Shown here piece by piece: positions 3,337 to 60,535 of a DNA stretch of 64,000 nucleotides. Source of the stretch: Acidimicrobiales bacterium (lineage in GTDB: Bacteria > Actinomycetota > Acidimicrobiia > Acidimicrobiales > Iamiaceae); assembly GCA_035547835.1 (NCBI GenBank), contig DASZTW010000012.1, forward strand, positions 1-64,000, given 5' to 3'. Under the pieces are notes generated by a model, which worked only from the letters and a program-made list of their open reading frames with translations, searched no databases and was not told where the DNA came from. The translations under genes were made by a program, and so were the position numbers. Position 1 is the stretch's first letter. Every line of letters begins with the position of its first letter.

Positions 3337-3390
3337 CCGCCGACGCTATCCCCGCGCCGACCCCCCGACCCCTCCCGACCCGCTTCTCCT

Positions 3391-3444
3391 CCATTCTGGG
3401 CTGCTTTTTACGCGTTGGGACGCGTCGTTTTCAGCCCAGAACGG
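3391..3444. repeat. 54-bp palindrome, family A copy 1
   Basis: Arms of 13 bases (left CCATTCTGGGCTG, right CAGCCCAGAACGG, 12 of 13 paired) enclose a 28-base loop that itself holds ACGCGT-TGGG-ACGCGT. It lies between the cofD start and the 3' end of the Ig-like gene. Three more copies with the same 13-28-13 spacing are at 28527, 48728 and 60415. Confidence 0.88.
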
Positions 3445-3445
3445 T

Positions 3446-3487
3446 GGGTCAGGCGGTGACGGGGGTCAGGCGTCAGGCGTCAGGCGT
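3446..3487. repeat. GTCAGGC short repeat running into a stop codon
   Basis: Four GTCAGGC heptamers occur here, three of them back to back. The TCA at 3480-3482, inside the last one, is the stop codon of the minus-strand Ig-like gene. Similar GTCAG arrays end other minus-strand genes near 31429, 46949 and 51111. Confidence 0.7.
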
Positions 3488-28521: not shown

Positions 28522-28526
28522 CCATT

Positions 28527-28605
28527 CCGTTCTGGGCTGCTTTTTACGCGTTGGGACGCGTCATTTTCAGCCCAGAACGGAGGTTTCGGCTTCAGCCCAG
28601 AACGG
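28527..28605. repeat. 54-bp palindrome, family A copy 2, plus a solo right arm
   Basis: CCGTTCTGGGCTG (28527-28539) and CAGCCCAGAACGG (28568-28580) pair perfectly around a 28-base loop with an ACGCGT-TGGG-ACGCGT core. An extra copy of the right arm follows at 28593-28605 as part of a short direct duplication ending in the stop codon of the minus-strand LLM gene. The element fills the gap between two convergent genes and could stop transcription from both sides. Confidence 0.88.
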
Positions 28606-32814: not shown

Positions 32815-34124
32815 CAGCGTCCGGGCTCTGCGGGCAGGTCGATCGGCACGGGTTCGCCGGCGACGTGGGCCGAAACGCCGGCCATCGCCACGTCGAGCAG
32901 CCAACGTCCACCGCTGCGCAGGGTGGCGAGCGTGGCGGCCGCGGCGACCATCCCCGAAACGGGGTCGGCGACCGCGTCGGCCACGAAACACGGGCCCCGG
33001 TCGTCGTAGACCACCAAGCCCCCGGCCACCGCCGCCACGTCGCCGAACGCCACCCGGTTGCGCCACGGCTCGGCCCGCCCGAAGCCGGTGATCGACACCC
33101 ACACGGTGGGGCCGTCGGCAGCCTCGAGGAGCTCGGCGGCCACGATGCCGAGGTGCTCCAACGCCCGGGGGCGCGAGCCCTCGATCACGACATCGGCCCG
33201 GCGGAGGAGGTCGTGCAACTCGGCGCGGCCGTCGGCCGTCGTGAAGTCGACCCGGACGTGTTGCTTGGCACCGTTCAAGCGCTCGTAGAACTCGGTCGGC
33301 CCTCGGCGGGCGCCGTCGGGCCGTTGCACCGACTCGACTTTGAGGACCCGCGGTCCGGCCTCGCCGAGCAGGCGCCCGGCGAGCGGACCCGCCCACAACG
33401 ACGACAGGTCGACCACGGTCAGGTCCCGCAGCGGTTCGCCGGGAGACCCGCTCGATCGGCGGGGCCGGCCCTCGAACGGTGTCGCCCTGACGGGCAGGCC
33501 GAACGCCGTCGCCACCGGTTCGGCCGCCACGCGGGCGGTCCCGGTGGTTGTCGGTTCGGCTGCCACGCGGGCGGTCCTGGTGGTTGTCGGTTGGGCTGCC
33601 ACGCGGGCGGTCCCGGTGGTTGTCGGTTGGGCTCCCACGCGGGCGGTCCCGGTGGTTGTCGGTTCGGCTGCCACGCCGAGCGCCGCGGCAGGGAGGCCGA
33701 ACTCGGCCGCTCGCTCATCGAGGTCGGCAGCTCGGCGCGAAGCCACGAGCGCGGCGACCGCCCCGAACGGTGCTGGCTGCTCCGGGGCCACGGCGTCGAA
33801 CGAGAGTGCCCCGGGCAGGGAGTCGAGCTCGAGCCATGCCGGGATGAGCTCGACGTCCTCGGGGCGAGCGAGGGTGAGGGCCAGCCAACCATCGGCCGTG
33901 GACAACAAGCGTGTGCCGCCACCGCAACTGATCGGACTGCGACGCCGCAGACCCGCGATGGCGGCCCGCTCGGCGAGCAAGGCCGCGCTGTCGACGCCCA
34001 GCTGCTCGTCGAGCAGGTCGAGCAGGTCGAGCAGCGGCCGGGGAGGCCCGATCGGTGGGCCGTCGGCCCGTCCGGTCAGCTCCAGCGCACCGCTGGCCGC
34101 CCACCGGGCGATCTGAGGATCCAC
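32814..34124 (-). CDS. Family III CoA-transferase (CaiB/BaiF) with 12-residue repeats
   Basis: A 436-residue CoA-transferase. The first ~200 residues resemble the C-terminal lobe of the family (GTRLLSTADGWLALTLARPEDVE). Four tandem 12-residue repeats related to AAEPTTTGTARV then form a linker, and the catalytic lobe follows (LTVVDLSSLWAGPLAGRLLGEAG, RRADVVIEGSRPRALEHLG, and FGDVAAVAGGL with the likely nucleophilic Asp). GTG 34124 is divergent from the enoyl-CoA hydratase with almost no spacer, so one of the two starts may be misplaced. It shares a transcript with the amidohydrolase. Confidence 0.78.
   Translation of the reverse strand: MDPQIARWAASGALELTGRADGPPIGPPRPLLDLLDLLDEQLGVDSAALLAERAAIAGLRRRSPISCGGGTRLLSTADGWLALTLARPEDVELIPAWLELDSLPGALSFDAVAPEQPAPFGAVAALVASRRAADLDERAAEFGLPAAALGVAAEPTTTGTARVGAQPTTTGTARVAAQPTTTRTARVAAEPTTTGTARVAAEPVATAFGLPVRATPFEGRPRRSSGSPGEPLRDLTVVDLSSLWAGPLAGRLLGEAGPRVLKVESVQRPDGARRGPTEFYERLNGAKQHVRVDFTTADGRAELHDLLRRADVVIEGSRPRALEHLGIVAAELLEAADGPTVWVSITGFGRAEPWRNRVAFGDVAAVAGGLVVYDDRGPCFVADAVADPVSGMVAAAATLATLRSGGRWLLDVAMAGVSAHVAGEPVPIDLPAEPGR
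33517..33676 (-). repeat. 36-bp in-frame tandem repeat inside the CoA-transferase gene
   Basis: Four 36-base units (33517-33552, 33553-33588, 33589-33624, 33625-33660) and a 16-base partial unit differ from each other at one to three positions. Because 36 is a multiple of three, the frame is kept and each unit adds twelve residues (Thr/Ala/Pro-rich). This looks like a replication-slippage VNTR in a domain linker. Confidence 0.93.
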
Positions 34125-34131
34125 GCCCTGA

Positions 34132-35172
34132 TTGTGCCAAGGGCGGTCGCCCGCCGCGTACAGTCCCGCTATCCGAGCGATCGACCTGTCCGACGGCGAG
34201 CTCGCCGAGTTGCTGGCCTCCCCGTTCGCGGCGGAGGAGCTGTCCGACCCGTCCGGGCTGCTGGTCACCGTGCGACCCGAGGCCGGTGCGTTCGTCGACC
34301 ACCGGCTGCTCACCAGCCTGCCGTGCGTGGTGGTCGGGGTAGACCGTCCGGCCTTCGACACACCCCCGTGGTGCGACGCCGTGGTCGACCCCGCCGTCAC
34401 CACCATCGGGGCCATCGAGGCGACGGTCGAGGCCACGCCGTTGGCCGCCACCGCCTTCGTGCTGCTGTTGCGGTCCGCCCGTGCCACAGTCGACGTGGAG
34501 GCGGGCTTGGTGGCCGAGTCGGCCGTGTACTCGATGTTGCAGGGCGGCCCGGAGTTCGCCCGTTGGCGTGCCAGCCACCCGGCGCGGGAGCGCGCCGTGA
34601 GCGACGGCCTGCCCGTGCGCGTCGAACGGTCAGGTGGCCGCGTCGACGTGATCCTCGACCGACCAGAGGTCCGCAACGCGCTCGATCGCACGCTGCGCGA
34701 CGGATGGCTCGCGGCGCTGGCGGTGGCGCTGGCCGACCCGTCGGTCTCCGAGGTGGTCGTGCGCGGCGAGGGGCCGAGCTTCTGCAGCGGCGGCGACCTC
34801 GACGAGTTCGGATCGTTCGGCGACCCCGCGTCAGCCCACTTGGTGCGACTCACGGCGAGCATCGGCCGGGCGCTCGATCAGCTCGGGGCGAGACTTGGGC
34901 CGGGCCTCCGCTTCGAGGTGCACGGTCCGTGCGCCGGATCGGGCATCGAGCTCCCGGCTTTCGCGGCCCTCGTCGAAGCCCGGTCGGACTTCACTGCGAT
35001 CCTGCCCGAGGTCCGCCTCGGCCTCATCCCGGGCGCCGGCGGCACGGTGAGCCTGAGCCGGCGGATGGGGCGTCACCGCACCGCCCTGCTCGGCTTGTCC
35101 GGCGCCACCCTCGACGCCTCCACCGCCCTCGCCTGGGGCCTCGTCAACCACGTCCACCCCCCCGTGCTGTGA
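34132..35172 (+). CDS. Enoyl-CoA hydratase/isomerase-like protein with N-terminal extension
   Basis: 346 residues in the longest form. The crotonase core occupies residues ~155-346: VDVILDRPEVRNALDRTLRDG, GPSFCSGGDLDEFGSFG (oxyanion hole), VHGPCAGSGIELPAFA and VRLGLIPGAGGTVSLSRRMG, which keeps the Glu-like family signature. The first ~150 residues (AIDLSDGELAELLASPF...) are a second, weakly similar alpha/beta segment seen in some actinobacterial crotonases. The start is uncertain: TTG 34132 lies eight bases from the divergent CoA-transferase start. The stop codon sits inside the family B palindrome. Confidence 0.75.
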   Translation: MCQGRSPAAYSPAIRAIDLSDGELAELLASPFAAEELSDPSGLLVTVRPEAGAFVDHRLLTSLPCVVVGVDRPAFDTPPWCDAVVDPAVTTIGAIEATVEATPLAATAFVLLLRSARATVDVEAGLVAESAVYSMLQGGPEFARWRASHPARERAVSDGLPVRVERSGGRVDVILDRPEVRNALDRTLRDGWLAALAVALADPSVSEVVVRGEGPSFCSGGDLDEFGSFGDPASAHLVRLTASIGRALDQLGARLGPGLRFEVHGPCAGSGIELPAFAALVEARSDFTAILPEVRLGLIPGAGGTVSLSRRMGRHRTALLGLSGATLDASTALAWGLVNHVHPPVL

Positions 35173-35210
35173 GCACTTGGCCACCTGGTGGGTTGGTAAG
35201 TGCTCACAGC
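35166..35210. repeat. 45-bp palindrome, family B copy 2
   Basis: A left arm beginning GCTGTGAGCACTT (35166-35185) and a right arm ending AAGTGCTCACAGC (35191-35210) pair at 17 of 20 positions around a 5-base loop. It overlaps the stop codon of the crotonase-like gene (TGA 35170-35172). Compared with copy 1 at 1-45 the outer stem has changed on both sides so pairing is kept. Confidence 0.85.
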
Positions 35211-35228
35211 AGGTGGGTTGGTGGGGAC

Positions 35229-46765: not shown

Positions 46766-46817
46766 GGAGGTCGGCCTCCGCCCCGATCGTGGGGGGCCTG
46801 GCCTCCACCCCGATCGT

Positions 46818-46865
46818 GCTGTGAGCACTTCGCCACGTCCTGGGTGGTCAACTGCTCACAACAGC
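46818..46865. repeat. 45-bp palindrome family B copy 3, degenerate
   Basis: It opens with GCTGTGAGCACTTCGCCAC and closes with GTGGTCAACTGCTCACAACA. Fourteen of 17 inner positions pair, and a 2-base insertion disrupts the outer stem. It lies downstream of the crotonase gene and upstream of a GTCAGGTG tandem repeat. Just before it, GGCCTCC-N-CCCCGATCGTG is duplicated (46772-46816). Confidence 0.72.
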
Positions 46866-48705: not shown

Positions 48706-48727
48706 CAGACCGTTTTAGTGGCCCCTT

Positions 48728-48781
48728 CCGTTCTGGGCTGCTTTCTACGCGTCCCAACGCGTCGTTTTCAGCCCAGAACGG
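48728..48781. repeat. 54-bp palindrome, family A copy 3 (core inverted)
   Basis: Arms CCGTTCTGGGCTG (48728-48740) and CAGCCCAGAACGG (48769-48781) pair perfectly around 28 bases. The core reads ACGCGT-CCCA-ACGCGT, which is the reverse complement of the core in copies 1 and 2, while the rest of the loop keeps their orientation. It lies between two divergent genes, so it is not simply a terminator. Confidence 0.88.
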
Positions 48782-48807
48782 GTGAGCGTACGATGGCGGG
48801 GCGTACA

Positions 48808-53956: not shown

Positions 53957-55414
53957 GTGACCCTGGACGAGCTCATGGCCGCCGCGCCCCGCAGCGATGG
54001 ACCCGTCCTGGTCGATCGCGACCATGCCCTCACCCGTGACGACCTCGACGCCGCGGTGGCCAGCGCGGCTGCGGACCTGGTGGACCGTGGCGTCGGACGA
54101 GGCGACCGGGTGGCCTGGCAACTGCCCAACTGCGTCGACGCCGTGATCTGGACCCGAGCGTGCTGGCGGATCGGCGCGATCGCCGCACCCCTTCACCACC
54201 TGGCCGGCGCGAGCGAGATCGAACACCACCTGGCCGTCCTCGACCCCACCGCGATCCTCGGCCCGCCACCGCCGAAATCCTCCGATTCGTGCAGAAGTGG
54301 CGGAATAGCAGCCATTTCTGCACGAAGAGTCGCGGGCGAAGGCGGGTCGCCGGAGGACGACCTGGCCGTGGTGCTGTTCACGTCGGGCTCGACAGGCTCG
54401 GCCAAAGCGGTGCTCCACACCCATCGGGCACTCGTCTACAAGTCGCAGCTCATGTGCGACGTGCACACGCTCGGCCCGACCGACGCGGCCCTCGTGCCGT
54501 CGCCGATCGCCCACATCTCCGGGATGCTCAACGCCATCTTGGTGCCCGGTGCGGCGGGGATGCGGGTGGTGCTCATGGAGAAGTGGGAGCCAGGGCGAGC
54601 CCTCGACCTCATCGAGGAGCACCAGATCACGTTCATGATCGGTCCGCCCACACAGTTCATCGGCCTGATGGACCATCGCGCCTTCACCCCCGAGCGGGTG
54701 GCGTCGATGCGGGTGATCTCGACCGGTGCAATGGGGGTGAGCCCGTCGTTCGTCGAGCGGGCGAGCGACGCGTTCGGCGCCCACGTGAAGCGGGCGTACG
54801 GCTCGACCGAAGCCCCCACGGTCACCACGTGCCACGCCGACGACCCGCCCGAGCGATCGGCGACCTCCGACGGCCGAGCGATCGGCGACGCCGAGGTGCG
54901 CATTGTCGACGGTGAGGTCTGGGTGCGCGGGCCCGAACTGTTCGCCGGCTACGCGGACCCCGCCCAGACAGCCGAGGTCATGCGCGACGGCTGGTTCCGC
55001 ACCGGCGACCTCGGCGTGCTCGACGACGGTCGCTGGCTGCGCATCACCGGTCGGGTCAAGGACCTCATCATCCGGGCCGGCGAGAACATCGCACCTGCCG
55101 AGGTCGAGGCCGTGCTCGAGCTGCACCCGTCGGTCGCCCAGGCCGTGGCGGTCGGCTACCCCGACGACACGTACGGCGAGCGGGTGGCCGCCTTCGTGGT
55201 CCTTGCCACCACCGCCGAGCCCGCCGCCGACGCAGCCGGTGGGTCGGGGGTGTTCGACGTCGCGGCGTGCCGCGAGTGGTTCGCCGAGCAAGGCGTCGCC
55301 AGATTCAAGACGCCCGAGCGGGTGATCGTCCTCGACGAACTGCCCGTGCTCGGCATCGGCAAGCCCGACCGCGCCCGTCTCCGTCGCCTCGCCGCCGACC
55401 TGTCGACCGGCTGA
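53957..55414 (+). CDS. Acyl-CoA synthetase (AMP-forming) carrying a palindromic insertion
   Basis: A 485-residue ANL ligase. VVLFTSGSTGSAKAVLHTH is the P-loop, RAYGSTEAPT motif A5, TGDLGVLDDGRWLRITGRVKD A7-A8 (quoted in part), RAGENIAPAEVE the hinge and IGKPDRARL the catalytic Lys. Residues ~109-125, before the P-loop, are encoded by a 41-base palindrome and read as a Ser/Arg/Ala-rich stretch. GTG 53957 is chosen because the family sequence starts there; the leader would be only a few bases long. It is divergent from hyuB. Confidence 0.86.
   Translation: MTLDELMAAAPRSDGPVLVDRDHALTRDDLDAAVASAAADLVDRGVGRGDRVAWQLPNCVDAVIWTRACWRIGAIAAPLHHLAGASEIEHHLAVLDPTAILGPPPPKSSDSCRSGGIAAISARRVAGEGGSPEDDLAVVLFTSGSTGSAKAVLHTHRALVYKSQLMCDVHTLGPTDAALVPSPIAHISGMLNAILVPGAAGMRVVLMEKWEPGRALDLIEEHQITFMIGPPTQFIGLMDHRAFTPERVASMRVISTGAMGVSPSFVERASDAFGAHVKRAYGSTEAPTVTTCHADDPPERSATSDGRAIGDAEVRIVDGEVWVRGPELFAGYADPAQTAEVMRDGWFRTGDLGVLDDGRWLRITGRVKDLIIRAGENIAPAEVEAVLELHPSVAQAVAVGYPDDTYGERVAAFVVLATTAEPAADAAGGSGVFDVAACREWFAEQGVARFKTPERVIVLDELPVLGIGKPDRARLRRLAADLSTG
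54286..54326. repeat. 41-bp palindrome inside a coding sequence
   Basis: TTCGTGCAGAAGTGGC (54286-54301) and GCCATTTCTGCACGAA (54311-54326) pair at 15 of 16 positions around a 9-base loop. It lies in the acyl-CoA ligase gene without breaking the frame, in the variable segment ahead of the P-loop, and is clearly lower in GC than its surroundings. No second copy was recognised in this window. Confidence 0.8.
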
Positions 55415-55525
55415 CAGCCAGTCCGCCCTTCGTCTGTCGCCGGGTCGCCGCCCTTCGCCGGTCGCCGGTCGCCGCCATTCGTGTGTCGTCGGGTCGCCGC
55501 TGTCCGGCGGGCGAAACGCTCGCAT
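55415..55525. other. Degenerate GTCGCCG repeats after the acyl-CoA ligase
   Basis: About 110 bases hold imperfect units containing GGTCGCCGCC and TTCGTCTGTC, at roughly 15-30-base spacing. No gene is seen. The family C palindrome follows directly. Confidence 0.5.
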
Positions 55526-55568
55526 GATTGGCTCTTTTCTTTCGGATTCCGACACCAACGAGCCAATC
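55526..55568. repeat. Family C palindrome, copy 1
   Basis: GATTGGCTC (55526-55534) and GAGCCAATC (55560-55568) pair perfectly. Between them TCGGA-T-TCCGA forms a second small hairpin. It shares most of its inner sequence with the copy at 56612-56660. It lies between the convergent ligase and DUF559 genes. Confidence 0.82.
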
Positions 55569-55577
55569 TGCCGGCCG

Positions 55578-56611: not shown

Positions 56612-56660
56612 GATGTTTGGCTCGTTCCTTTCGGATTCCGACACCAACGAGCCAAACATC
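56612..56660. repeat. Family C palindrome, copy 2
   Basis: GATGTTTGGCTCGTT (56612-56626) and AACGAGCCAAACATC (56646-56660) are a perfect 15-base inverted repeat around 19 bases containing TCGGA-T-TCCGA. The inner 25 or so bases match copy 1, while the outer stem differs on both sides and stays paired. It lies upstream of the DUF559 gene and downstream of the CoA-transferase. Confidence 0.88.
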
Positions 56661-60348: not shown

Positions 60349-60414
60349 GGCCTCACGATAAGGGACCCGCTCACGGCCAGTCGGCGCCCCCACCTCAGGG
60401 GCGGCGCCAGAAGC

Positions 60415-60468
60415 CCGTTCTGGGCTGAGAATTACGCGCTCCAGCGCGTAAAAACCAGCCCAGAACGG
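60415..60468. repeat. 54-bp palindrome, family A copy 4 (inverted)
   Basis: CCGTTCTGGGCTG (60415-60427) and CAGCCCAGAACGG (60456-60468) pair perfectly around 28 bases. Read on the minus strand, its loop aligns with copies 1 and 2, and the core inner pair has changed from T-A to C-G on both sides. It lies between the divergent acyl-CoA dehydrogenase genes. Confidence 0.88.
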
Positions 60469-60535
60469 CGGGGAGGGGGGGTGGTGGGGTGACGCACCCG
60501 GTGGTGACGCGGTCGTCGTACAATGCGCCGCCGAC

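Follow-up and report, generated by a model that had tools for sequence, protein, structure and literature searches.

What accounts for a low-GC palindrome in the reading frame of a GC-rich enzyme gene: an inserted repeat that the host protein carries along, or ordinary coding sequence that folds back on itself? This question is raised by a 41-base inverted repeat at positions 54286-54326 of the window, by which we mean the whole 64,000-nucleotide stretch that was analysed (C12:1-64000; the genome comprises 3.70 Mb in 22 contigs and is 96.7% complete). The initial annotation regarded it as a palindromic element that sits in frame within an apparently intact gene, and this view is borne out by a dispersed repeat family and by the preserved motifs of the enzyme. 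We consider it very probable that the element is one copy from a REP-like family specific to the species or genus, of REPIN type when doubled, and that this copy was inserted into a linker of the ligase and is translated and tolerated there.

The palindrome in the ligase gene

The core palindrome consists of two 16-base arms (54286-54301 and 54311-54326, forward strand), which form 15 Watson-Crick pairs and one G-T pair around a 9-base loop (54302-54310). Its GC content is 51%, compared to 71% for the ligase coding sequence, and just 0.4% of the 41-base stretches in the window are similarly AT-rich; arms, pairs, loop and low GC are thus as initially described. A 61-nt stretch folds as RNA with -33.0 kcal/mol, versus -15.4 +/- 2.9 for shuffled sequences (z -6.15; 0 of 200 shuffles as good), and as DNA with -18.4 (z about -5.5, precisely -5.46). 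The ligase frame runs across the palindrome with the codons TCG TGC AGA AGT GGC GGA ATA GCA GCC ATT TCT GCA CGA and yields the peptide SCRSGGIAAISAR, in good agreement with the earlier reading of about 14 residues. The repeat unit, however, extends beyond the arms. Its left tail of some 17 bases (54269-54285, forward strand), CCGCCGAAATCCTCCGA, matches the tail of the other copies, which reads about CCGCCAAAATCCTGCGA when 19 units with 20-base left flanks are compared; the right tail (54327-54333, forward strand), GAGTCGC, corresponds to the GAGT or GAAC found in most other units, which faces inward in doublets. With both tails, the window unit accounts for about 21-22 residues instead of 14 (ligase residues about 105-126). 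No Rfam family reaches its gathering score anywhere in the window, and no terminator-like site lies within 54150-54450. The right tails of the listed units also lack a T run, so that the combination of hairpin and T run typical of an intrinsic terminator does not occur there.

The host gene (53957-55414, forward strand) encodes an acyl-CoA ligase of the ANL superfamily with 485 amino acids. The open frame and Pfam define the gene, and its GTG start was picked by orthologue alignment. Nearly the full length is covered by PF00501 (AMP-binding, E 9.5e-64) and PF13193 (AMP-binding_C, E 3e-12). Every residue found to be invariant in an alignment of 26 ligases is present, including T142, S143, G144, K150, D351, R366, K368 and K469, and the claim that the catalytic motifs are kept therefore stands. 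The motif TSGSTG (residues 142-147; 54380-54397, forward strand), which we take to be the P-loop, lies 15 residues downstream of the element.

The site in front of this motif is, in the alignment, a hypervariable linker. Between PLHH and LFTSG the window ligase has 62 residues, while the eight orthologues counted (47-53% identity) have 37, 50, 52, 65, 68, 70, 70 and 72; five of the eight linkers are longer than that of the window ligase. Another 21 more distant ligases in the same alignment, mostly with longer linkers, are unlikely to be orthologues and were left out of this count (one of them, L038, is incomplete). An equally long, conserved peptide in orthologues had been named initially as the observation that would argue against an insertion: the lengths are indeed similar, but the peptide is not conserved. 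Since the orthologue lengths bracket that of the window ligase, homology alone is no proof of an insertion at this site. The same follows from the solved ligase 8weu, which aligns across the segment with query gaps of just one residue and six residues. Among the relatives compared, which belong to other genera, no empty site was seen. An AlphaFold2 model based on the 26 sequences has a mean pLDDT of 83.7; the residues of the element fall in two stretches, 104-118 and 120-129, where the score drops under 50, and the low values are also due to the poor alignment there. The ligase by itself would not prove an insertion, and the argument is carried by the genome-wide family and by a second gene-internal copy in a TetR regulator gene.

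The repeat family and its distribution

A blastn search with a 141-base query against the own genome gave 33 matches. A covariance model, R1, was built from 19 aligned units; it returns 53 rows at E<=10 and 45 rows at E<=0.01, and the latter, after merging of strands, correspond to 23 distinct units at 19 places, a count that includes the 19 units on which R1 was trained. The window copy ranks highest (79.1 bits, E 2.7e-21) and the TetR copy fourth (74.3 bits), which is consistent with recent copies, though both were part of the training set. A genome search for intergenic copies of a named 15-mer had been suggested at the outset, and intergenic copies that carry this 15-mer were found. The units are short, stem-loop-forming palindromes, dispersed in many copies through one genome and mainly extragenic, as is expected of REP-like sequences.

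In a common orientation, each unit comprises about CCGCCAAAATCCTGCGA, followed by a 41-base hairpin TTCGTGCAGAAGTGG-loop-CCACTTCTGCACGAA and mostly by GAGT or GAAC. Stems measure 15-16 bp and loops 9-11 bases; the loop is often CGACATAGCAA-like and may point either way with respect to the tails. Two copies (L009:1432-1490 and L017:1519-1577) form a sub-family with one and the same insert, about GCATCGACCGGYTGAGCCAGCC, which lengthens the loop. Four places hold two full units each, arranged as inverted doublets in which the CGA tails point outward and GAGT/GAAC (or GTTC) inward; the spacers measure 31, 31, 31 and 30 bases and differ in sequence. One half of a fifth doublet (C8:37822/37901) has decayed (E 0.054). 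This layout is REPIN-like. It escaped the initial annotation, which is incomplete in this respect.

The 19 listed units end in CGA and mostly in GAGT/GAAC; the unpaired end motif GTAG (or GTRG, GYAG) is absent, and so is the combination of CGTC (TGTC, CCTC) with an 8-9 bp stem and a 4-5 base loop. Within the alignment, no pair has changed on both sides and covariation does not exceed that of shuffles. These data give no evidence of selection on an RNA fold, and the hairpin need not be a selected RNA structure, a candidate explanation that we rejected for this reason. Of the 19 units, 17 or 18 are free of stops in each of five reading frames and 10 in the sixth, and therefore a unit of frame-keeping length is easily read through.

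As judged from the sequences searched, the family is found with confidence in its own genome only. At E<=1e-4, R1 detected it there and in no other of the 298 genomes of the order among the matches listed (strict filters, 18 candidates scored per genome). At E<=0.01, a search of 61 relatives returned the own genome and five others (G021, G020, G007, G014 and G049); the best matches of G021, G020 and G007 fall below 1e-4, though they lie outside the matches listed for the larger search. The match in G049 looks like chance. The other four genomes belong to other genera of the same family as the host genome, and their hairpins share a like core (GCAGAAGTGG...) with different outer stems: G021 (L135:129-253, where it is arranged as a direct tandem pair), G007 (L137:1501-1559), G020 (L136:1501-1559) and G014 (L139, L144). 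An exact-core pattern matches 7 of the 298 genomes including the own one, with one place in each of the other six, a result that says little because a reversed control pattern also matches some genomes. Phages, plasmids and viral contigs gave no match (the viral scan used one exact pattern), and spread by phage or plasmid was rejected on these grounds.

As to a mover, the Y1 (RAYT-type) transposase domain PF01797 has no match in the own genome at 96.7% completeness in 22 contigs, while 5 of 14 control genomes were positive; a strictly RAYT-driven REPIN was thus rejected. If a RAYT moved the family, the enzyme has been lost, is encoded in the small part of the genome that the assembly lacks, or is too diverged. 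PF01797 is present in 10 of the 61 related genomes, but in none of those with look-alike stem-loops (G007, G014, G020, G021). Some IS110 elements target REPs, and the genome holds a single match to the IS110-family transposase PF02371 (L015:405-1560, C18), which ends some 30 bases before the repeat unit at C18:21264-21346; the junction carries a tandem repeat of 16 bases, which is perfect. Element halves are found on one side only and the frame looks broken by eye, apparently frameshifted at the N-terminus; we therefore rejected IS110 as the mover and regard it as a neighbour.

Several other repeats were observed in the window. A second, larger palindromic family (TTCTGGGCTG...ACGCGT...CAGCCCAGAA, about 54 bases) occurs at 3390-3449, 28526-28585, 48727-48786 and 60414-60473, and genome-wide in 46 match rows at about 30 places (E<=0.001). 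Of these window copies, three are clear of coding-like ORFs, and the remaining one runs across the 5' part of an ORF for an acyl-CoA dehydrogenase, probably ahead of the real start. A third palindromic family (TTTGGCTCGTT...GGATTCCGACACCAACGAGCCAAA) lies at 55524-55570 and 56613-56660; for this family the genome gave 9 match rows, which fall on 7 places. Of the two window copies of a fourth palindrome (CTGTGAGCACTT...AAGTGCTCACAG), one lies at 46815-46864 and the other, at 35163-35212, overlaps the stop codon of the gene in front of it. A 36-base tandem repeat with about 5 copies occupies 33480-33695.

Gene context and competing explanations

The gene context of the 19 places was derived from ORFs scored by codon-position GC and from a Pfam comparison of 20 flanking or overlapping proteins, and thus rests on an ORF filter rather than on annotation. 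Ten places overlap no coding-like ORF. At five, the only overlap is with an over-extended 5' part of an ORF, ahead of its Pfam domain, and the true start is probably downstream of the repeat. At two places the repeat supplies the stop codon (TAA or TAG, formed at the loop) of the preceding gene, an apolipoprotein N-acyltransferase-like gene (C1:142357) and an ABC transporter gene (C1:65423). The remaining two lie inside genes and in frame, namely the ligase and the TetR copy (C5:139128). Compared to random insertion into a gene-dense genome, gene-internal copies would seem to be depleted.

In the TetR regulator gene (C5:138646-139431, minus strand; L013:1144-1932 including the stop codon), the frame passes through the unit on its other strand and gives SSCGSGDTATTSARIAG, after which comes a run rich in Gly, Ser and Ala. 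The latter is encoded by a GC-rich simple repeat (L013:1590-1690, C5), which follows the unit in the reading direction of the gene. Unit and simple repeat together make up about 40 extra residues. In alignments to relatives, two matches nearly abut in the subject and leave query residues of about 80-122 unmatched; the stretch of roughly 40 residues is absent from 14 of 14 aligned homologues. On the sequence comparison, TetR appears as a cleaner case of insertion than the ligase. Both in-frame copies use the same one of the palindrome's three frames, SCRSG...SAR in the ligase and SCGSG...SAR in TetR, which gives a slight hint, if any, of something beyond chance.

One competing explanation holds that no element was inserted and that an inverted repeat arose by chance in a variable linker of ordinary coding sequence. 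It would fit the similar linker lengths of the orthologues, and a search confined to the window, with a 15-mer and three mismatches allowed, indeed finds the two arms of the palindrome at 54286-54326 and nothing more. Genome-wide, however, the 41-base unit recurs with its tails at 19 places, mostly outside genes, and its fold departs far from that of shuffled sequences. The recurrence is the decisive evidence: it rules out a chance palindrome, and ordinary coding sequence becomes an exceedingly improbable reading. One may also think of sites under selection rather than selfish repeats, e.g., terminators, mRNA-end stabilisers, or gyrase or nucleoid-protein binding sites, with the ligase copy being incidental. 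Such sites could explain why stop codons are overlapped by two copies, why several copies are placed at gene ends, and why stem sequences are well kept while the spacers differ. Against this, the window copy has neither a T run nor a terminator-like site, intergenic copies are found between convergent, co-directional and divergent genes alike, compensatory changes are absent, and the family is not found with confidence in other genomes, so we judge a regulatory or structural role to be improbable.

A further possibility concerns only the ligase site, where the element may have replaced an older linker of similar length, e.g., by template switching or by gene conversion from another copy. The final linker of 62 residues falls within the orthologue range of 37-72, as a replacement would predict; yet removal of about 21 residues leaves about 41, a length that the orthologues with short linkers (37, 50, 52) still bracket, and the TetR case is a plain insertion. 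We regard replacement as unlikely, although it deserves to be kept in mind, and infer that the ligase copy is an insertion.

Insertion of a unit from a REP-like family thus remains our preferred explanation. By analogy to known systems, the family most probably spread by transposition, a hairpin-forming intermediate being moved by an enzyme that would no longer be present or is not recognised. Copies would have settled mainly between genes because most intragenic insertions would be lost. One unit may have entered the hypervariable linker before the P-loop of the ligase, where its translation would give a tolerated stretch rich in Ser, Ala and Gly (PPPKSSDSCRSGGIAAISARRVA); this is possible because five of the six frames are nearly always free of stops. 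The ligase protein is presumably made and active. In a more far-reaching interpretation, the REP-like family would act as a source of ready-made protein linkers, having spread with no RAYT in a high-GC lineage that is apparently actinobacterial, to judge from the nearest named hits of the ligase; copies would be retained where they lengthened flexible linkers. The nearly always stop-free frames and the same Ser/Gly/Ala-rich frame in both gene-internal copies led us to this idea, which we hold to be rather doubtful.

Comparison with known repeat systems

The following comparison draws on portions of the cited papers. REP and REPIN sequences (Bertels and Rainey 2011, PMC3116915) are described there as many-copy short palindromes, mostly intergenic, with REPINs tied to a resident RAYT transposase. 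Our family resembles them in its mostly intergenic short palindromes, in inverted doublets that are able to form one large hairpin, and in the presence of singlets beside doublets. It differs from REPINs in that a PF01797 match and a GTAG-type tag are missing here and that some two dozen units only are present.

In the CGTC-tagged REPs of Di Nocera et al. (2013, PMC3733652), which end in CGTC, stems measure 8-9 bp and loops 4-5 bases, head-to-head dimers predominate, and intragenic units include RPE-4 and RPE-6 of Rickettsia. These repeats share with our family the lack of a dedicated transposase and the existence of intragenic units, while stems of 15-16 bp, loops of 9-11 bases, and tails CGA and GAGT/GAAC set our family apart. 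As with the GTAG-tagged REPs in the same paper, units at gene ends give the neighbouring gene its stop codon (C1:142357, C1:65423), although the TAG of those repeats lies in the tag and the stop forms at the loop here. The RPEs (Ogata et al. 2000, reviewed in PMC2229807) are 105-146 bp long and are read in frame inside conserved protein genes. The likeness lies in the in-frame read-through of a conserved gene by a host protein that is apparently tolerant; our unit is much smaller, and sequence and host are unrelated. The feature that characterises an RPE, i.e., an in-frame stretch in a conserved gene that is absent from homologues, is seen in the TetR copy, with all 14 homologues lacking the stretch; in the ligase, linker length varies too strongly among orthologues for such a comparison to decide.

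The initial annotation held that in-frame palindromes are known mainly from Rickettsia, which is too strong, as intragenic REPs have been published in many species, with O. terrae ranking highest for GTAG repeats in the portions of Di Nocera et al. (2013, PMC3733652) used here. The word Actinobacteria is absent from the text of that paper. RepRanger (PMC12306157), in the part of the paper considered, gives REP predictions for Acidimicrobium ferrooxidans among others, from a search of intergenic regions. Among open-licence PMC papers, we found nothing closer on in-frame or intragenic REPs in actinobacteria. The family is new, REP-like and partly of REPIN type, and two of its copies are gene-internal and read in frame, which amounts to ordinary read-through and not to a new principle. 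It adds, to the elements of unsettled mobility, a case with neither REP tag and no recognisable transposase. With two translated insertions predicted in one genome, the one in TetR with clear evidence from homologues, the tolerance of proteins to REP insertions becomes testable.
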